Below are positions 54,838-64,000 of a DNA stretch of 64,000 nt, piece by piece. The number at the start of each line of letters is the position of its first letter. Position 1 is the first letter of the stretch. The DNA comes from a virus, in IMG/VR virus record IMGVR_UViG_3300032242_002041, positions 1 through 64,000 of that record, one strand, 5' to 3'. The notes beneath the pieces were generated by a model, which saw only the letters and a list, made by a program, of their open reading frames with translations, was not told the DNA's origin and ran no database searches. The position numbers and the translations under genes are program-made.

Positions 54838-55052
54838 TCTCGACATCTGACCAGATTAGCAAGATGGTTGATCAGATGGAAAAAGACACAGTTAATATCA
54901 GACGAGAGGCGTTGCAAATGGCCTGGTATATGCGTGGAGGATTGTCTTACGATCAAGCTCTGCAGCTCAGCGTCAGTGAGCGTACATTAATCAGCGAATT
55001 AATTAAAGAAAACTTAGACACCACCAAAAAATCAGGATTACCTTTTTTCTAA
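54816..55052 (+). CDS. Predicted -1 frameshift extension of the gp26-like protein (gp51-like position)
   Basis: At T TTT TTC (54816-54822) the gp26 frame can slip by -1 into a frame open to 55052, adding 76 residues and making a 351-residue fusion. If read alone it would start at ATG 54864 (MVDQMEKDTVNIRREALQ), with no good Shine-Dalgarno. The extension is helical and includes YMRGGLSYDQALQLSVSE and ELIKENL. Tail chaperones of lambda (G/T) and P2 (E/E') use such a shift, P2 at T TTT TTG. Position after gp26 is that of T4 gene 51. Confidence 0.65.
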   Translation, partial: FFRVRLLVSTSDQISKMVDQMEKDTVNIRREALQMAWYMRGGLSYDQALQLSVSERTLISELIKENLDTTKKSGLPFF

Positions 55053-55558
55053 TGTTAGATCTAGCAACTGTAAAACAAGCGATAGAGCAGTGGATAGTAG
55101 ACTTCGTTGAAGTTCCACATCCAGCACTTGGTGGCTGGGCTCCTTGTCCGTATGCTCGTAAGGCTCGCCTTGAACAAGCCTATGAAGTAAGGTTGGGCAC
55201 AGACCCCTATGTTGACTTGCTGGAAATTTCTAAAACTGGCCTAAACGGTAAAAGTGTCATTGTCGTTGCTTATGATCCTGCACACTGGGAATACCGATAT
55301 TTTAGTGAAAGCCTAAAAGCTGCAAACATTGTGCATTTACTTGACCGTGACCTCCTGGCCTTGGAGGATCATCCTGGAGACCCAGAAATTGTCAACGGCG
55401 TTTCAATGAATCAAGGAACCTATGCCTTGGCCTTGGTCCAGAGTCTCAGTGACCTGAATGAAAAAGCCAAGGCCATGGCTCGCAAAGGATTTTATGCAAC
55501 GTGGCCAGAAGAATATTTACAAGCATTGTTTGAAAACCGCAAGGATCCTAGACTGTGA
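55052..55558 (+). CDS. Conserved hypothetical protein (168 aa)
   Basis: I do not recognise it. The protein starts MLDLATVKQAIEQWIVDFV and includes HPALGGWAPCPYARKARLEQ, then GKSVIVVAYDPAHW and MNQGTYALALVQSLSDLNEK. The pattern suggests a small alpha/beta protein. Its start codon shares its first base with the stop of the frameshift extension, and it overlaps the next gene by 4 nt (GTGA/ATGA-type overlap at 55555). It belongs to a five-gene plus-strand operon with gp26. Confidence 0.6.
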   Translation: MLDLATVKQAIEQWIVDFVEVPHPALGGWAPCPYARKARLEQAYEVRLGTDPYVDLLEISKTGLNGKSVIVVAYDPAHWEYRYFSESLKAANIVHLLDRDLLALEDHPGDPEIVNGVSMNQGTYALALVQSLSDLNEKAKAMARKGFYATWPEEYLQALFENRKDPRL

Positions 55559-55989
55559 CTTATCAGTTTGCTAGAATACGATTAGCAGAAACTACCTACC
55601 AGGCCACAGTAGAATGGGAATATCTGCATGAGCCTAACATTGTACAGCTCAAAGACATTTACAGAACCTACTGCATCTATAAACACTTTGCTAGTGTTAT
55701 GCCATTATTTGATAGTCAGTTTACAGATCCTGATACAGATGTTGTTGGTTACAGAGAAGAAGGGCAACTAGTAGCGTTTAGTTTGATGAAACGCTACGAT
55801 GAGCAAAACGTTCTAGCCAGTCAGTTTGCATGGACCTATCATAATCCACGAACAAGACTAGGCATAGAAAGTTTAAAAACAGAGTGTGCTATCTATAGAG
55901 AACGCGGATTTAAGTTCTTGTACTTAGATCAAGCACATCTGTACAAGCAAGGCTTAGAAGGCTTTGAAATTTTAGGGACACTACAATAA
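55555..55989 (+). CDS. GNAT-like acyltransferase-type protein (144 aa)
   Basis: The translated start overlaps the previous stop. The protein has GYREEGQLVAFSLMKRYD, then TRLGIESLKTECAIYRERGFKFLYLDQAH, in the order beta-strand 4, acyl-CoA-loop-like region, helix, beta-strand 5 that GNAT or arginyltransferase-like folds show. No full acetyl-CoA motif (RxxGxG/A) is present, so the assignment is tentative. The substrate is unknown. It is coupled to the DUF6614 gene (stop/start overlap). Confidence 0.5.
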   Translation: MTYQFARIRLAETTYQATVEWEYLHEPNIVQLKDIYRTYCIYKHFASVMPLFDSQFTDPDTDVVGYREEGQLVAFSLMKRYDEQNVLASQFAWTYHNPRTRLGIESLKTECAIYRERGFKFLYLDQAHLYKQGLEGFEILGTLQ

Positions 55990-56324
55990 TGGCAGATTTA
56001 TACACAATTTGGGCAAACAAAGAAGGCGACATCTCAGACCTAGACTGGACCAACGGAATGCGTAGCTTTTTTGATCACTTAGTTGCAGAAGGCAAAATGG
56101 AATCATACAGAATTACTCGTTGTAAAATGGGCTTCCGCAGTATTGCTGATATGCCTGAATGGATGATTTTAATGGAATTTAAAAATATGGCTCAAATGGA
56201 TGAGGCCTTTAAGAGAGTTGCTCCATTAGAAGGCGAACTCGAAGTGAAACATAAATCATTTAATCAGTTTGTTAGTGGAGACATTCAACATGCACTGTTT
56301 AGAGATTGGCCTGATCAATTCTAA
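55989..56324 (+). CDS. DUF6614 family protein (111 aa)
   Basis: The protein MADLYTIWANKEGDISDLDW, then GKMESYRITRCKMGFR and DMAQLDEAFKRVA-type NMAQMDEAFKRVAPLEGE, ending with HALFRDWPDQF, matches DUF6614, a small alpha/beta barrel-like family seen in aquatic phages and bacteria. Its function is not known. It ends the plus-strand operon, and hairpins follow directly. Confidence 0.75.
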   Translation: MADLYTIWANKEGDISDLDWTNGMRSFFDHLVAEGKMESYRITRCKMGFRSIADMPEWMILMEFKNMAQMDEAFKRVAPLEGELEVKHKSFNQFVSGDIQHALFRDWPDQF

Positions 56325-56742: not shown

Positions 56743-57171
56743 TTAAATTTTGTTTTTTATGTGACTTCCATGTATACGGCACACAATTTGTCCGTTATAA
56801 TAGTCGTCTGATTCTAATACTCTATGATTAAATTGTTCTCTGGCTTCAATATAACTACATTCTGCTTTTGATTTACAATAAAATAATATTTCTCTTGTAA
56901 AGTTGTCGGCGCCCTGCGCTAGAATATCTTGGTTGAGTTGATCGTTGCTTCCATAGTATAGTTGCCAGTCTGAGTCTATTTTGCTTTTTATTTTCTTACG
57001 TTTTTTGTTGCCGTTTTTTAATTTTACTACCTTGTATGAGGTTTTACTAAATTTTGCTAATTTTTTTCCAATATATTTTCTGCCAGTTATGTTATTTGTA
57101 ATCAAATAAACAAAGCCGACACAGTCTTCGGGTAGTGTTTCAATTTGTGTGTTTTCGTAAAGCCATACCAT
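56743..57171 (-). CDS. GIY-YIG endonuclease, SegE-like
   Basis: The 142-residue protein has GFVYLITNNITGRKYIGKKL (the GIY-YIG pair VYL and KYIGKK), a Lys-rich insertion (KLKNGNKKRKKIKSK) and YYGSNDQLNQDILAQG followed by FTREILFYCKSKAECSYIEA with the catalytic Glu region. This order fits SegE-type endonucleases in T4-like phages. It lies 18 nt from the second radical SAM gene, in the convergent gap. No strong promoter is visible. Confidence 0.82.
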   Translation of the reverse strand: MVWLYENTQIETLPEDCVGFVYLITNNITGRKYIGKKLAKFSKTSYKVVKLKNGNKKRKKIKSKIDSDWQLYYGSNDQLNQDILAQGADNFTREILFYCKSKAECSYIEAREQFNHRVLESDDYYNGQIVCRIHGSHIKNKI

Positions 57172-57189
57172 GGACTTATAGTTATCATA

Positions 57190-58200
57190 TCACCACTCGG
57201 TTGCATATTTTTCATCCACTTTCGTATCAGAACACTTGGTTTGACATTCTTGCCAACGAAATGTTTTTAATTCTGCTGTCCAAAACGGATCAGCTATTAC
57301 ATCTAATAAGGTTCTAGTATGTAGATCAAACTGTTCAGCCAGAGTTTGCCACTCACTGTTGTGCCCGTATCGGTTGGCTACCCAGCAACAAGGAAACAAT
57401 CTACCACGAGCGTCTATGTACAAGCCCTTGTTACCAATTTCACACAAAGGTTTAACGCCGTTGATCTCAGTCGCCGACTTGTACAATTGTATATTTTTTT
57501 CGTTTACACGATTGTTAATGCCACGTGAGCTTAACAGTATAACATCTCTTTCAAATCTATGCGACCCGCTGACAAACTTACGACTAGGTTCCAACGGATC
57601 ATCAATGCCGTAACTGGGATAAACACTGCCAAATTTGGTAGAACGTGTAAGTTGAAATGCATCCATGCCCAGTTTCGTTGCTAAAGATTTCATATAGTCA
57701 ACGTGATCTTCGTTGAACTTAAAGGCTATAGCGGCCCACACCAATCGACACTTGCTTACGGCTCTTAGAGTTTCAATTCCCAGCACGATTGATACAAAAT
57801 CACTGTTTACACGATATAGATTATTACTGGCGTTATCGTAACCGTCTACGCTAAAATGCACTGTGTCTTGATCTGTTAACACAGAGCCTAGCCCTTGCCA
57901 CCATTCAGGCTTCTTGTGTGAACCATTGGTAACAATAACTATCTGCACAGGTTTAATGCGTTTGATATACTCAATTACAGGAATAAGATCGTGTGCATAT
58001 ATAGGGTCGCCATCATCGCCACAGAATGTAATTTTCTCAACATTTTTTAATATAAAATCTTCTGTAAAGTTACGTTTAAAGAACGCTAAATCTAATTCAG
58101 TATTAACTAACCCATTGGGAACTTCCTGCCGGGCGCACCGAGGGCACCGTAAGGTACACTTACTGCTGATCTCAATATGGAAGTGCCAAGTTGCTAACAT
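57190..58200 (-). CDS. Radical SAM enzyme with SPASM/twitch-like end
   Basis: The 336-residue protein carries C15, C19 and C22 (KCTLRCPRCARQ), the radical SAM cluster motif, then FCGDDGDPIYAH (a GGEP-like loop) and HFSVDGYDNASNN. Near the C-terminus GVKPLCEIG, LFPCCWVANRY and ECQTKCSD give the cysteines of a SPASM or twitch domain, which binds extra iron-sulfur clusters. Such enzymes usually modify peptides or proteins. It starts within the stop of the upstream gene, so it is coupled to the methyltransferase-like genes. Confidence 0.85.
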   Translation of the reverse strand: MLATWHFHIEISSKCTLRCPRCARQEVPNGLVNTELDLAFFKRNFTEDFILKNVEKITFCGDDGDPIYAHDLIPVIEYIKRIKPVQIVIVTNGSHKKPEWWQGLGSVLTDQDTVHFSVDGYDNASNNLYRVNSDFVSIVLGIETLRAVSKCRLVWAAIAFKFNEDHVDYMKSLATKLGMDAFQLTRSTKFGSVYPSYGIDDPLEPSRKFVSGSHRFERDVILLSSRGINNRVNEKNIQLYKSATEINGVKPLCEIGNKGLYIDARGRLFPCCWVANRYGHNSEWQTLAEQFDLHTRTLLDVIADPFWTAELKTFRWQECQTKCSDTKVDEKYATEW

Positions 58201-58952
58201 AAGTTGACGAATTTATTTCCGGCTAATGCCATCAAACTATATCTTTCTGCCAAGGTTAACTCTGGATTGTTAAAATCATAGTCCTTGTTTATTACTTTAT
58301 TTTGATACGCACCACTGGGTACGTTTTTTTTATTACTGTCTAGCCAAGTATTATACACATAATAAAACTTTGAGTCAATATCAAATTGGTACTTTTTTAA
58401 TACAGAATCAAATGTAGCTTCGTTTTCCAATAACGCAGAAACATTTATATGTTGAGTGCCAACAGTTTGTTTACGAATATGATCAACAGCAACACAATAC
58501 ATAGAGTAATTGACTTTTACTATAGGATCGATAATTTTTGATGCTAATACATTAAAATTTATATCAACTGTTGTTGTTTTATCAATGTTGCTTGCAACTA
58601 CAAACGGTAACGCAATATCGTCGGCTACTATGTCTATTGTAAAATTATCAAACAGGTCAGTGGTATAGTAATGACTTTTGAACCATTGGTGATTTGGCAA
58701 AGAACAATACTCATCCAGTTCAGATGATAATTCTTGAATGTTAACATGGTCTAAGTAATCAGCGTTGGCAATCTTGTCAATATTTTTAGCTGTAGCCCAG
58801 TTAACTTTTGAAAAATCTGTACCAGTTTTGCCATTACTTTCTATGGCAGTATACTTTATGTTGACAACTGATTCAGGCGAGCCAAGCGATTTAAGATATA
58901 AAATCATATCGCCACCTGCTCCACCACTCCATCGTAAAATCTTGGCCGCCAT
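58194..58952 (-). CDS. Unknown protein with glycine-rich N-terminal loop (252 aa)
   Basis: The start MAAKILRWSGGAGGDMILYL has a Gly-rich loop similar in form to nucleotide or PAPS-binding loops of P-loop sulfotransferase-like proteins, but I cannot confirm it. The rest has DIALPFVVASNIDKTTTVD and ends with LTLAERYSLMALAGNKFVNL. It starts on a TAATG overlap with the previous gene and ends within the start of the second radical SAM gene. It could be a substrate-binding or group-transfer partner. Confidence 0.55.
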   Translation of the reverse strand: MAAKILRWSGGAGGDMILYLKSLGSPESVVNIKYTAIESNGKTGTDFSKVNWATAKNIDKIANADYLDHVNIQELSSELDEYCSLPNHQWFKSHYYTTDLFDNFTIDIVADDIALPFVVASNIDKTTTVDINFNVLASKIIDPIVKVNYSMYCVAVDHIRKQTVGTQHINVSALLENEATFDSVLKKYQFDIDSKFYYVYNTWLDSNKKNVPSGAYQNKVINKDYDFNNPELTLAERYSLMALAGNKFVNLC

Positions 58953-59488
58953 TATTTCTTCCTAACAATTACAATAGAATTGTTAATTTGTTGTCCGTTG
59001 GTTTTTTCTAATACATTTTTATATGTTGTAGTAAGCCTATTAAAATGGACACGGACAAACGGTACAGTACAAATCACTTGGCCGCCTGCTGGTACATACT
59101 CTAACAACTGATCTAAATTATCAACTAGCTGATCCACTGTTTGGTGGTGTACCCAATAATCGCTGTGTAGTATGACTAGATTTGTTGACAATAGCTTATT
59201 CAGAACAAGACGGTACAGTGCTGGGTTCTCGGGCTCTACAAATAGAGTTGACTTGTGAAATTCTAAATTGGCATTTTTAAACATTTTAAGCTCAAGGTAT
59301 GTGGCATCAAAATCTAAACGCCAACTTCCGCTAAACATAAAAGTTGTTTTCCCGGGTAATATCATATTTTTAACACAGTCAAGCACATCTGTATCTATAG
59401 GATAAGATAAAAATTTACAACGATTTGCCAACGTACCTGGATCGTCAAGTAATTTAGATTCTGTTACATAAGAATTAACAATATTCAT
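58952..59488 (-). CDS. Methyltransferase-like protein (178 aa)
   Basis: I choose ATG 59488 (MNIVNSYVTESKLLDD), which overlaps the upstream stop (ATGA). The C-terminal half, TNLVILHSDYWVHHQTVDQL, then LLEYVPAGGQVICTVPFVRV and NRLTTTYKNVLEKTN, looks like the later strands of a class I SAM methyltransferase (motif 'L..GG....vPf'). The classical motif I is missing. It could be a divergent methyltransferase or a non-catalytic relative. Confidence 0.5.
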   Translation of the reverse strand: MNIVNSYVTESKLLDDPGTLANRCKFLSYPIDTDVLDCVKNMILPGKTTFMFSGSWRLDFDATYLELKMFKNANLEFHKSTLFVEPENPALYRLVLNKLLSTNLVILHSDYWVHHQTVDQLVDNLDQLLEYVPAGGQVICTVPFVRVHFNRLTTTYKNVLEKTNGQQINNSIVIVRKK

Positions 59489-59973
59489 TGTGCAACCCTT
59501 AGATGAAATCGTGTCAATGGATGTATCCAATTAAACTTGTTGCCAAAATCAAGTCCACATGGTTGGTATTGTTCAACTGTTGCGTTTATGTTTTTGGTAA
59601 TAAATTGCTCAATAGCAGTGTCATAGTCAGCAGACAACGTGGAATCATAGCAGTTGGCCTGTGCCACATACTTGTTCAGTGACAGATAAATTAAGGATCC
59701 TGGAAGCATTTGATTTTTTATTATACCATTGATGTTGGAAACAAGATCGTCAAAATTAAATTCTTGTAACTGTATATAGATACAAAAATCTACCGGTTCT
59801 GAATCTACAAATTCAACAAAGTCAGCAAAGTAATCAATCGCGCCTATTGCTAACGCTTGTTTATAATTGCCACGATTGATTATATCTATCAAGTCTTGAT
59901 CCTGCTGTATACGGCACTGGCCTTCAAATAAACTCAATTGACCATCGCGGTCTGGTCTAGGATATGTCGACAT
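59485..59973 (-). CDS. Small methyltransferase-like protein (162 aa)
   Basis: The start overlaps the end of gp46 by 17 nt. The middle, ADFVEFVDSEPVDFCIYIQL, then LVSNINGIIKNQMLPGSLIYLSLN, again resembles the C-terminal strands of class I methyltransferases (L-P-G-S-L-I-Y-L-S). The end ELDFGNKFNW-type GLDFGNKFNWIHPLTRFHL may contact substrate. It has no clear SAM-binding motif I. It is likely a relative of its neighbour; function is unknown. Confidence 0.5.
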   Translation of the reverse strand: MSTYPRPDRDGQLSLFEGQCRIQQDQDLIDIINRGNYKQALAIGAIDYFADFVEFVDSEPVDFCIYIQLQEFNFDDLVSNINGIIKNQMLPGSLIYLSLNKYVAQANCYDSTLSADYDTAIEQFITKNINATVEQYQPCGLDFGNKFNWIHPLTRFHLRVAQ

Positions 59974-61720
59974 CGGTGTTATAACTTGTAAATCCGTTTT
60001 CTTTGACCACTTTGAGAATATTTTCTACTCGTCCAGCAAGTTCATCTCTATGACTTACTAGCCAAATTGACTTGTGTCGTTCGCGGCTCATCTGTTTTAA
60101 CAAGGCCAACGCACTCTCTACACCAGCAGTATCGAGTCCGTTGTCAATCATTTCGTCTATAAACAGGAGATTAATTGGCTGGTATAAACTTTCAAATACA
60201 TCACGGAATGCCCACGACATACTCAGAATTAGTCGATTACGTTCACCGCGGCTTAGGTTATCAAAGTCCAACTCACGACCTAGCTCTTCAATACCAACGG
60301 TTAAGTCGTTTTGGAATACCACAGTATGCGGCAAGCCCACGCGATCCAAGTAGTGTGTTAGTCTAGCATTTAGATAGCTAAGATTTTGTTCAATAATCTT
60401 CTTACGGATGAAACTGTCTTTGCTTGTGAGCAGTTTGAGTAGGAACTCTTGATGTTCTTGCAAGCGAGTAAGTTCATTAAGTGTGTCATATGAGACCTCC
60501 TGTAAGGCTTGTTGTTGCATTTCTTCAATCTGTTCTGCATAAGGATCTGTTTCCACTTGCTTTGTGGCAATCTGTTGCTCCAAGCTAGTTAATGTAGCTT
60601 GATGTTGAATAGCATCACTCTCTTTGTCATAGAACATCTTGGGCGGCTTACCTAACGTGCCCAAGGCCGTGTGGGCAGTCTCCAGCTCTGATAGGAGGGT
60701 GCTGTAAGTTGTGCCGCTCTCTCGAGCCGTTGCCAGATCACTCTGTTTCGCTTCCATAACCTGTTGGTGCTTACTATCGTGGAAGGGCTGACCACACGTA
60801 TGACATTCATGGTTAGCGAGCGTTTCAATTTCCTTAGATAGTTTGGCGACCAACTTGTCCTCCCGGCCGATGTCCAGTTTGACTCGTGCGATCTGACTCG
60901 ATAGTTCGTTGATATCCTTTCGCTTTTGATCCCACTCCTTGTGATCTTTATGCGCTTGGATCTCCACTGCAATGTCAATTGCCTGTAACGATTGTAAGGC
61001 TTTCTCAAGTTCTTTGATATCTTCGCCATGTTTAGTAGCCCATAATCCTTGTCTACGTTTAAGACTGTCTATTTGTTCTTCGATGCGTTTATTGGCTTCC
61101 TGTATTGCACGAATACGAAATTCTTCTTGCGTAATTCCGTCTTTGGTTTGTTTGTTGAGCTCTTTAATTCGGTCAGCACGTTCACTTAGCATGGTAATGC
61201 CAAGCAATTGCTCAATTATGGTACGCTGATCGTTGGCTTTAAGACTTAAAAATGGTTCAGTATAAGTGTTTAACGCCATGATATGTTTGAACATATCGTG
61301 ACTAAGTCCCAAGGTAGCTTCAATTGACTCTTGCGTTTCTCTTGAATCACCTTGTGCTTCGTCAGTAATGACTTGTTCTTGATTGTTTACATAGAATTTT
61401 AAAATATTGGGTTTACGACCACGCTCAATTTTATAAGTTTGATTTCCAGCTACAAAATCTAAACTGACCAACATGCCCTTGCCGTTGGTCTTATTAACCA
61501 GATTGTCTTTGCGAATATTGCTTAGTGCCTGGCCGTATAATGCATAACTCAGGGCATTTATAATAGTAGTCTTACCAGTACCATTGCGACTACCATCACC
61601 ACCTAGGTCCAAATTTTCTCCTAGTACAAGAGTCAGGTCGGTGCGATCAAAATCAATAGCCTGTGTGGTATTGCCTACACTCATAAAGTTTTTTACAGTA
61701 AGATTTTTAATTTGTATCAT
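59957..61720 (-). CDS. gp46: Recombination nuclease subunit gp46 (Rad50/SbcC-like)
   Basis: The 587-residue ATPase has Walker A with an insertion (NGTGKTTIINALSYALYG after LGENLDLGGDG), a long coiled coil with a zinc hook CHTCGQPF near residue 305, the signature LSRGERNRLILSMSW and Walker B LLFIDEMIDNGLD. With gp47 it processes DNA ends for recombination-dependent replication and degrades host DNA. It overlaps the upstream radical SAM gene by 4 nt and the next gene by 17 nt. Confidence 0.93.
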   Translation of the reverse strand: MIQIKNLTVKNFMSVGNTTQAIDFDRTDLTLVLGENLDLGGDGSRNGTGKTTIINALSYALYGQALSNIRKDNLVNKTNGKGMLVSLDFVAGNQTYKIERGRKPNILKFYVNNQEQVITDEAQGDSRETQESIEATLGLSHDMFKHIMALNTYTEPFLSLKANDQRTIIEQLLGITMLSERADRIKELNKQTKDGITQEEFRIRAIQEANKRIEEQIDSLKRRQGLWATKHGEDIKELEKALQSLQAIDIAVEIQAHKDHKEWDQKRKDINELSSQIARVKLDIGREDKLVAKLSKEIETLANHECHTCGQPFHDSKHQQVMEAKQSDLATARESGTTYSTLLSELETAHTALGTLGKPPKMFYDKESDAIQHQATLTSLEQQIATKQVETDPYAEQIEEMQQQALQEVSYDTLNELTRLQEHQEFLLKLLTSKDSFIRKKIIEQNLSYLNARLTHYLDRVGLPHTVVFQNDLTVGIEELGRELDFDNLSRGERNRLILSMSWAFRDVFESLYQPINLLFIDEMIDNGLDTAGVESALALLKQMSRERHKSIWLVSHRDELAGRVENILKVVKENGFTSYNTDVDIS

Positions 61721-63222
61721 AGATTCTTATTATACACGTATCCCATGGCTTTTGCAATCTCAAAATGGTTTTCTGAAAAGTTTTCATTTCTAATTTGATC
61801 AAACCATCTAACTCGATTATTAAACTTAGCACCATCGCTGTCTGGTAGCGTTTTTATAATTTCCAATACCTTTTGTATTTCGTTCCAGGGATGGTCTTTG
61901 AATTTGTTAAACATTAATTCCTTAGCGTCTTTGGTTAAATTATTCAATTCAACACCAGGGCCACGCACATGACTAACAAATAACGGAAACCCGTGTTGTT
62001 GTGCCCAGTTGTATACTTGATCAATGTAATACACGTTCATAATACTGATGGTAGGCATAATACTGATAGAAAGATTTGGTAAATTTAATTCTTTGATTCT
62101 GAGAATATTTGCCTCAACATCTTTCCAACTGCCGCCTCGTTGTAACTCAAACTGTTTTTCAACAGCATCAATACTAAAATGTATATCAACCAATTTAAAA
62201 TCTGGCCAGTAAGGTAATAACTGTTCGGGCCATATAGACCCGTTACTGTTATAGTGCAATCTGATATGCGTGGAGTGCCCTTGATCAACAGCTAGCTCTA
62301 GCACTTTTTTAAATTTTTTTATTAAAAATGGTTCGCCGCCAAACATGTCAATGTTTTGAATTCTTGGAAGCAACTCAACCATTTGATTAATAAAACTATC
62401 ACTTTCACTCCAGTTGTCTTGTAAAACCAGCGGGATTCCTTGATACTTGTGTTCCTCTAATGCAAACAGTGAGCTGCTCTCGCCGTTGCATACACGACAT
62501 TTAAAATTGCAAGTGTTATTAAACTTAAGATCAATGGTTGATATTTCAGGATCATCCAAAAACTTAGTTAAAAAATCTTTTTTTGTACGTTTTATATTAT
62601 GCATACGTATTGAAGTTAAGTTTTTATCTTCAACTTTCCAACAGGAGCTACATTCTGCTGGTTTCCTGCCAGCTAAGAATTCTGCCCGCAATTGTGTTGC
62701 AACCTCACTGTGAAATGCCTGTTCCAGCGTTGTAGTTTTAATATTGCCCAAACTTAAATTTTTGATCATACAACAAGGTGTAATATCACCAGTTGAACGG
62801 ATTTCTAAATTGGTCCAGGGTATTGAGCAAATAGTATCGGGCAGCATATTTGAATCAACCACTTTGTGGGTAGGACCAAGAGCAACTTCTTGAAATCCAA
62901 CAGGAATTGGATCTGTTGAAAACTGCCGGCACGATGATGCCACTAGATCCTTTAATTCAGCAGGACCGCAGATTAATATAAACCAGTTGCTAATATCAAT
63001 AAAGTTAATTGTTTCATACAGATTTTGCAAGAACTGCTCAGATAGGTGTTGCGAAGTGTAAAATACAATACGATCGTCGGCATTGTAACTCTCTTGATAT
63101 ACACTGTCTAGTGCTTTAAACAATCCATTAGGAGTGGCTGATAGCTTTCCTAAATCGTGTATCAGCTTGACATTAAATTTTTCTTTCAGTTGACTTTCGA
63201 GATCATCCGGCGAAATAATCAT
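61717..63222 (-). CDS. Twitch-domain radical SAM enzyme
   Basis: The 501-residue protein has the radical SAM motif at C238, C242 and C245 (NTCNFKCRVCNGES), FGGEPFLIKKF after it, and HFSIDAVEKQ. A twitch-like Cys set lies before it, not after: C132 (ICSIPWTN), C150/C151 (ITPCCMI) and C191/C194 (CSSCWK). This order fits twitch-domain radical SAM proteins seen in phages. Residues 1-120 are a separate alpha/beta domain. It overlaps both gp47 and gp46 by 4 nt, so it is made together with them. The substrate is unknown. Confidence 0.85.
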   Translation of the reverse strand: MIISPDDLESQLKEKFNVKLIHDLGKLSATPNGLFKALDSVYQESYNADDRIVFYTSQHLSEQFLQNLYETINFIDISNWFILICGPAELKDLVASSCRQFSTDPIPVGFQEVALGPTHKVVDSNMLPDTICSIPWTNLEIRSTGDITPCCMIKNLSLGNIKTTTLEQAFHSEVATQLRAEFLAGRKPAECSSCWKVEDKNLTSIRMHNIKRTKKDFLTKFLDDPEISTIDLKFNNTCNFKCRVCNGESSSLFALEEHKYQGIPLVLQDNWSESDSFINQMVELLPRIQNIDMFGGEPFLIKKFKKVLELAVDQGHSTHIRLHYNSNGSIWPEQLLPYWPDFKLVDIHFSIDAVEKQFELQRGGSWKDVEANILRIKELNLPNLSISIMPTISIMNVYYIDQVYNWAQQHGFPLFVSHVRGPGVELNNLTKDAKELMFNKFKDHPWNEIQKVLEIIKTLPDSDGAKFNNRVRWFDQIRNENFSENHFEIAKAMGYVYNKNL

Positions 63223-64000
63223 AGGCTCTGATATATTTTTAACAGTAGTTTAGGATCGTAAAACTCTGATTCAATGTTGGTAATCTGATCTGTGACAATC
63301 TGATCCACACTTTCAAACTTAATTTCGCCAGGCGCAAGATCTAAATCCACAGCGGTGCTCTTAATAGGCAACAGGGCCATTTCACGTAGGTTATAGTCTT
63401 TGATGAATGTTTCTTTGATAAAGTTGGCTTCTTCATAGCTGATATCAATGTCTAGTTCTACACGCACATGCATATTGGGTCGAAATATATTGGCACCGTT
63501 GTCAATGGCTTCACTTAACTTCATAACTCGATACAATGGTTGTCCTGGCCAAGCAAAGTATTGCTGTTCTTGCCCCCACTCCAGAACCATCATACCACGA
63601 TTAGCATCGCCAGCATCGGCAAAGTTGTGTGGAAAGCAGTTGCCAATATAGTTGATGTTCTTTTTCTGTTGACGCAAATGGAAGTGCCCGGAGTACACAC
63701 TTTCGACTCCGGTAAAGTTTTCTACTTTGATCTCACCGTGGTCTGGCATTTCTACCATGGCATTCATCTTAAAGTGCGGTAGCTCAAAGTGTCCAAACAT
63801 ATATTTTGCTGACATTTTAGCTAATTTTTTATGATCATCTCCAACCAACCAAGGAGCAATGATAACATCATCCTGTTTAAACCAGTCGTTGACCACAGTA
63901 ATATTGGGCAAGTGTTGTGCCCATTCTGCGCCGTGAATATCACGTTTATCTCTATAGTAAAGATCGTGATTGCCCGGAATAAAGTAAAATTGTTCAAACG
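63219..64000 (-). CDS. gp47: Recombination nuclease subunit gp47 (Mre11/SbcD-like), partial
   Basis: The coding region continues past the right edge; before the internal TTG the frame encodes FYFIPGNHDLYYRDKRDIHG, holding the metallophosphoesterase GNHD motif. GHFELPHF and SVYSGHFHLRQ (GHxH-type motif) follow. It is the nuclease partner of gp46. About 260 C-terminal residues are present; the N-terminal metal-binding DxH motif is outside the window. Its stop overlaps the radical SAM gene start (ATGA). Confidence 0.92.
   Translation of the reverse strand, partial: FEQFYFIPGNHDLYYRDKRDIHGAEWAQHLPNITVVNDWFKQDDVIIAPWLVGDDHKKLAKMSAKYMFGHFELPHFKMNAMVEMPDHGEIKVENFTGVESVYSGHFHLRQQKKNINYIGNCFPHNFADAGDANRGMMVLEWGQEQQYFAWPGQPLYRVMKLSEAIDNGANIFRPNMHVRVELDIDISYEEANFIKETFIKDYNLREMALLPIKSTAVDLDLAPGEIKFESVDQIVTDQITNIESEFYDPKLLLKIYQSL

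Follow-up and report, generated by a model that had tools for sequence, protein, structure and literature searches.

Gene content and layout of the operon

The window analyzed here is the whole stretch of 64,000 nt, bases 1-64000 of the virus record IMGVR_UViG_3300032242_002041 (record G000, 228,286 bases in total). ORF calling confirmed seven minus-strand genes at 57190-63222, with gp47 reaching beyond this interval to its start at position 64235 of the record, outside the window. They are listed below with the domains of the first radical SAM (rSAM) protein and with the gene that follows the seven. Slot A denotes the gp47|gp46 interval and slot B the gp46|GIY-YIG interval.

63219-64235 of the record (63219..64000 in the window), minus strand: gp47, SbcD/Mre11-like nuclease subunit (phrog_100, 3e-34)
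61717-63222, minus strand: rSAM501, twitch-type rSAM protein in slot A (NF033640, 288 bits)
62839..63222, minus strand: rSAM501 N-terminal domain, aa 1-128, homologous to the N-terminal half of family X
62638..62829, minus strand: rSAM501 auxiliary iron-sulfur (SPASM/twitch) domain, aa 132-195 (PF13186, 7.5e-12)
62044..62523, minus strand: rSAM501 radical SAM core, aa 234-393 (PF04055, 1.5e-10; CNFKCRVC)
59957-61720, minus strand: gp46, SbcC/Rad50-like ATPase (phrog_77, 3e-102)
59485-59973, minus strand: 162-aa protein, small cassette gene 1 of slot B (counterpart of c11)
58952-59488, minus strand: 178-aa protein, small cassette gene 2 of slot B (counterpart of c12)
58194-58952, minus strand: 252-aa Gly-loop protein (SGGAGGDMI), small cassette gene 3, in place of c20
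57190-58200, minus strand: rSAM336, recurrent occupant of slot B (PF04055, 30.2 bits)
56743-57171, minus strand: SegE-like GIY-YIG nuclease gene, right edge of slot B (PF19835, 4.9e-32)

From gp47 to rSAM336, consecutive genes overlap by 4, 4, 17, 4, 1, and 7 nt, including a 4-nt overlap at each end of rSAM501, which agrees with the linkage by overlaps of 1-17 nt described in an earlier note on this DNA. The labels given there to gp47, gp46, the twitch rSAM, and the SPASM-like rSAM also hold, the SPASM match of rSAM336 being sub-threshold. The 178-aa gene was measured from an ATG; an upstream in-frame TTG would give 192 aa instead. Among 599 slot junctions in related loci, 371 were overlapping, 178 of them by exactly 4 nt, so that the overlaps are not due to chance, and the seven clustered genes are probably translationally coupled. 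The GIY-YIG gene begins 18 nt downstream of rSAM336; the operon probably extends as far as this gene, which is a possible homing agent. On the opposite strand, facing the operon, a DUF6875-like gene, a weakly ATE_C arginyl-transferase-like gene, and a DUF6614 gene occupy 55052-56324 of the window, and this trio is kept beside the operon in relatives.

Two exchangeable slots in a fixed backbone

Approximately 165 viral loci were gathered via proteins similar to rSAM501, gp46, and rSAM336; gp46 has at least 592 relatives in viral contigs. Mapping of gene ends revealed a fixed backbone of gp47, gp46, and GIY-YIG across about 120-155 related loci, with both slots variable in length. The slot A interval was -4 nt (gp47 and gp46 overlapping) in 41 of 122 loci and up to 3006 nt elsewhere. 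Slot B ranged from 29 to 4395 nt in 157 loci, in all of which the GIY-YIG gene adjoins it. To count occupancy among loci unselected for cargo, only the 80 best gp46 matches, hence close relatives, were used. In these loci slot A was empty in 31/69 and contained an rSAM gene in 10, and slot B was empty in 21/77 and contained an rSAM gene in 42.

The cargo comprises rSAM, Gly-loop, sulfotransferase, SGNH-like, methyltransferase, short-chain dehydrogenase, and dioxygenase-like genes, and a PhyH-like protein is also encoded in the slots. There were 27 filled combinations in slot A and 30 in slot B, an upper estimate, as the smallest ORFs probably include some spurious calls. On a gp46 tree with 87 tips, slot A showed 26 states with at least 48 changes and slot B showed 25 states with at least 49 changes. 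The tips carried 57 different slot A/slot B combinations, and the two slots change separately. Between pairs of loci with common cargo in slot A or slot B, a recombination gradient along gp46 was weak; these pairs are not independent, and the gradient was given no weight. Taken together, the locus is almost certainly a backbone operon with two interchangeable cassette slots.

These results bear on the proposal of the earlier note that the seven genes, or the five accessory ones, form one pathway. The genes are real, clustered, and group-modifying in appearance. However, the single pathway was rejected, because relatives have lost or replaced the accessory genes mostly independently of one another and their slot combinations change. 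Parts of the set do recur elsewhere, namely the pair of 162- and 178-aa genes and the pair rSAM298 and rSAM336. The seven genes thus represent a single draw from a shuffled stock of enzymes, of which every related virus has its own mix.

Several further genes were observed at these loci. A TctC-type periplasmic receptor gene is located at L071:3278-4222, another lies at 140688-141683 of the record, and one of these two is in slot A. In L003:12261-13194 and L069:2515-3503, an apparent split rSAM is encoded by two overlapping genes, one coding for 207-221 aa with CNYDCMYC and the other for a Cys-rich 106-108 aa part that may be a twitch domain.

rSAM501 and a predicted glycosyltransferase family

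rSAM501 belongs to the NF033640 family N_Twi_rSAM (288 bits; curated cut-off 170) and has relatives at 55-67% identity. It falls within the radical SAM superfamily (PF04055, 41.9 bits; cut-off 29.5), and the CxxxCxxC motif, CNFKCRVC, is intact, as it is in rSAM336; the earlier assignment of two rSAM enzymes was thus correct. The SPASM/twitch domain scored above the cut-off (PF13186, 45.8 bits vs 21.5). It precedes the rSAM core, and the alignment contains invariant Cys columns.

The N-terminal domain of rSAM501 is homologous to a stand-alone family, c4 or family X (hhalign probability 90%, E 2e-6), and the c4 HMM matches rSAM501 at 3.7e-9. Because of fusions, an iterative family X profile also collected rSAM proteins; it was replaced by a profile built from stand-alone members. 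Six stand-alone family X proteins are encoded in the record. The structural model of a family X protein (pTM 0.72) gave leading PDB matches to GT-B glycosyltransferases that agreed among themselves, at weak scores (best E 8.5e-4, TM about 0.2-0.4). The best PDB match by sequence was a fucosyltransferase at a non-significant E of 0.44. The fold matches of the model suggest that family X proteins are predicted GT-B glycosyltransferases. In slot A of three loci, family X is present as two separate half genes (L044:992-2061, L066:2039-3129, and L094:4922-5999).

Occupants of slot B

rSAM336 scored barely over the PF04055 cut-off (30.2 vs 29.5 bits), and with its CxxxCxxC motif, CTLRCPRC, it also belongs to the radical SAM superfamily; the PF13186 SPASM/twitch score (16.9 bits) was below the cut-off of 21.5. 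In the alignment of relatives, the invariant cysteines are C15/C19/C22 and, at the C-terminus, C271/C319/C323; at most by inference from these positions, the C-terminal set might act like a twitch domain. There were 306 relatives, the best 80 of which share 71-84% identity, and rSAM298 and rSAM336 recur together in other loci. No bacterial relative was confirmed in the genome contigs searched. rSAM336 is a recurrent and strongly constrained occupant of slot B.

In direct searches of viral contigs and phages, the 162-, 178-, and 252-aa proteins had no relatives. The view of these genes as orphans was overturned, for the first two of them, by profile comparison with the slot cargo, in which the best non-self matches of the three were c11, c12, and c20, respectively, each weak alone. 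In L078, L082, L097, L098, and L197, the segment from gp46 to GIY-YIG contains c11, c12, and c20, likewise in this order. Among the 237 proteins of the record, the c11 HMM ranked the 162-aa protein first (E 1.8e-4), with the common motifs NKY/NKF, YDS, and HPLT/HPVT, and the c12 HMM ranked the 178-aa protein first (E 1.2e-3). The c20 HMM did not find the 252-aa protein significantly in the same set (domain E 2.8), and family scans assigned it to no database family above threshold; only its place and a Gly motif (SGGAGGDMI vs EPGSGGDFI in c20) link the two. Thus, the 162- and 178-aa pair is backed by both sequence and place and the 252-aa gene by place only, and the homology check proposed earlier for these three proteins gave counterparts for two of them. 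Since a divergent c11-c12 counterpart pair occupies the same place elsewhere, the 162- and 178-aa genes belong to a real cassette.

The earlier note called two of these proteins methyltransferase-like, and support was obtained for the 178-aa protein, only via its relatives and a weak model. A low-confidence model of c12 (pLDDT 55) gave SAM methyltransferases as leading PDB matches (best E 1.9e-3). The 178-aa protein has no glycine-rich SAM-binding motif I (no GxGxG) in its translation or alignment, and it may weakly be regarded as a degenerate class I methyltransferase-like protein.

Selection was compared between backbone and cargo. The median dN/dS values, which derive from few pairs with synonymous sites often saturated, were 0.054 for gp46, 0.064 for rSAM336, 0.12 for rSAM501, 0.136 for c12, 0.252 for c11, and 0.331 for c20. 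The measured slot cargo is under purifying selection.

Radical SAM and sugar-related genes in the phage group

The record encodes 17 CxxxCxxC proteins, which is also the approximate number of its rSAM proteins. Sixteen of the 17 had rSAM family matches in the family scans, and the exception, at 153759-154637, is among the 16 places in the record listed by the PF04055 search. In the related records G001-G009, PF04055 matches mostly numbered 12 to 21, the outliers being a 117-kb piece with 9 matches and a 157-kb record with none; IMG/VR records are possibly fragments, and these counts are per record. The most matches, 21, were seen in G005, a 320-kb viral record from which locus L160 derives. 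In the comparison genomes, there were 11 PF04055 matches in CP220, 6 in Vibrio phage K566, and none in PA5oct. NF033640 scored above its cut-off 10 times in the record and in none of the 14 control genomes.

An island at 93-118 kb of the record contains epimerase, UDP-glucose/GDP-mannose dehydrogenase, and carbamoyltransferase genes, and an amidinotransferase-like protein is encoded at 114582-115607. A DegT gene and a second epimerase gene lie at 176-178 kb. A weakly DUF6875-like gene is also present within the rSAM island (108035-108568).

Proposed mechanism and alternative explanations

We propose that cassettes enter the slots in a way that largely preserves the overlaps of start and stop codons, and that their expression is probably joined to that of the repair genes through a putative common transcript. 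In this large bacterial virus, slot A contributes a twitch rSAM with an N-terminal domain common to the predicted glycosyltransferase family. Slot B contributes a three-gene cassette, in which the second gene is a methyltransferase-like candidate and the third codes for a Gly-loop protein, followed by rSAM336. The cassettes may be interchangeable parts of a larger repertoire (about 17 rSAM proteins, six GT-B-like proteins, nucleotide-sugar enzymes, a carbamoyltransferase, and an amidinotransferase-like protein). Judging from its predicted enzyme families, this repertoire most likely modifies sugars or glycans, probably those of the host surface. Competing phages or phage progeny might then no longer bind the modified surface, and, as general phage biology suggests, the rapid exchange might reflect a receptor arms race.

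Glycans are suggested as the substrate because many of the families encoded in the slots, at 93-118 kb, and at 176-178 kb belong to sugar or glycan modification, because family X has a predicted GT-B fold and is homologous to the rSAM501 N-terminal domain, and because CP220, K566, and the pelagimyophages offer precedents. The low fold score of family X and the lack of a significant relative of the 252-aa protein weaken this reading. Overall, we consider it slightly more probable than not that the slot model holds and that the substrate is a glycan or a surface molecule. A more far-reaching proposal is a mobile combinatorial kit of up to about 21 rSAM proteins with GT-B-like partners and fusions, swapped as cassettes in a repair operon and rewriting host-surface or virion glycans. 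As a whole, this proposal, in which the radical chemistry of the kit would be of a type still to be described for viruses, is less likely than not.

Peptides are the most frequent substrates of SPASM/twitch rSAM enzymes, which counts against glycans and favors peptide or protein modifiers (RiPP-like enzymes or maturases) whose targets would be proteins of the host or virion and whose partners would be the small proteins. The weak similarity seen to maturases, for example TIGR04317 (48 bits), and to several sacti- and ranthipeptide enzymes points the same way. However, all these matches are far under their cut-offs (48 vs 380 bits for TIGR04317), and the neighboring families in the record include sugar enzymes. 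Moreover, a peptide substrate gene, for which the earlier note proposed a search, has no room within the operon, where the junctions all overlap or measure 18 nt, with no precursor gene beside either rSAM gene. We therefore regard peptide modification as rather unlikely.

The DNA-end processing genes gp46-gp47 in the same operon would suit a role in modifying phage DNA or nucleotides or in the synthesis of antiviral-like nucleotides, as would the weak PADLOC pVip matches of rSAM501 (40.5 bits) and rSAM336 (30.1 bits). The NCBIfam viperin model NF038283 scored only 33.8 and 23.7 bits, respectively, against a cut-off of 180, and slots that are empty in 31/69 and 21/77 of the gp46-selected loci are unlikely to be needed for an essential genome modification, which makes this function improbable. 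Comparably low probability is given to the slots being neutral landing sites for homing-nuclease-borne or transient genes with no common function. The high cargo turnover on the gp46 tree, the GIY-YIG gene at the edge of slot B in all scored loci, and further apparent homing-endonuclease ORFs in some slots (by inspection) fit such sites, but much of the cargo consists of few modifying-enzyme families under purifying selection, and the constraint on rSAM336 is close to that on gp46 (0.064 vs 0.054).

Two clean slots, empty and full and with closely related alternatives, constitute a natural experiment, and an rSAM protein that shares a domain with a predicted glycosyltransferase provides a concrete substrate hypothesis. 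If the glycan reading is true, phages reshape glycans by radical chemistry and trade the enzymes as cassettes.

Comparison with known systems

To our knowledge, radical SAM islands have been noted in phages before, with their function unproven. In Vibrio phage K566, an rSAM cluster lies near an annotated PagP gene (one case, by annotation only). The closest cultured phages by DNA are the Pseudomonas jumbo phage PA5oct group, in which the gp47-gp46 pair is present (about 67% DNA identity to gp46-gp47 over 17% of the query). PA5oct differs in that its slot A is empty, gp47 and gp46 being joined by 1 nt, and its record has no PF04055 match. Unlike a plain member of the NF033640 family, to which it belongs by score, rSAM501 has an extra N-terminal domain common to the predicted GT-B family.

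The Campylobacter phages CP220 and CPt10 each carry 11-12 rSAM genes, clustered with a putative glycine amidinotransferase gene as an interchangeable module (PMC2853527); the group studied here, with up to 21, exceeds this number. In CP220, two nucleotide-diphospho-sugar transferase genes and the amidinotransferase gene lie alongside the rSAM cluster. The rSAM336 profile detects rSAM proteins of CP220 (6e-32 to 1e-29), and the CP220 amidinotransferase matches 114582-115607 of our record at 3e-10. A module of the CP220 type is present at 99-117 kb of the record, with nine CxxxCxxC proteins and this amidinotransferase-like protein, whereas the window operon has no amidinotransferase. NF033640 twitch enzymes dominate in this record, and none scores above the cut-off in CP220. 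In pelagimyophages, a hypervariable region is described in which rSAM cassettes are gained and lost between close phages, and modification of the host surface was proposed for the glycosyltransferases of this region (PMC7029224). These are a different phage group and locus, and slots flanking gp46 are not mentioned in the part of that paper available to us. Unlike in CP220/CPt10, the cassettes here also lie inside the gp47-gp46 operon, in slots that flank gp46.
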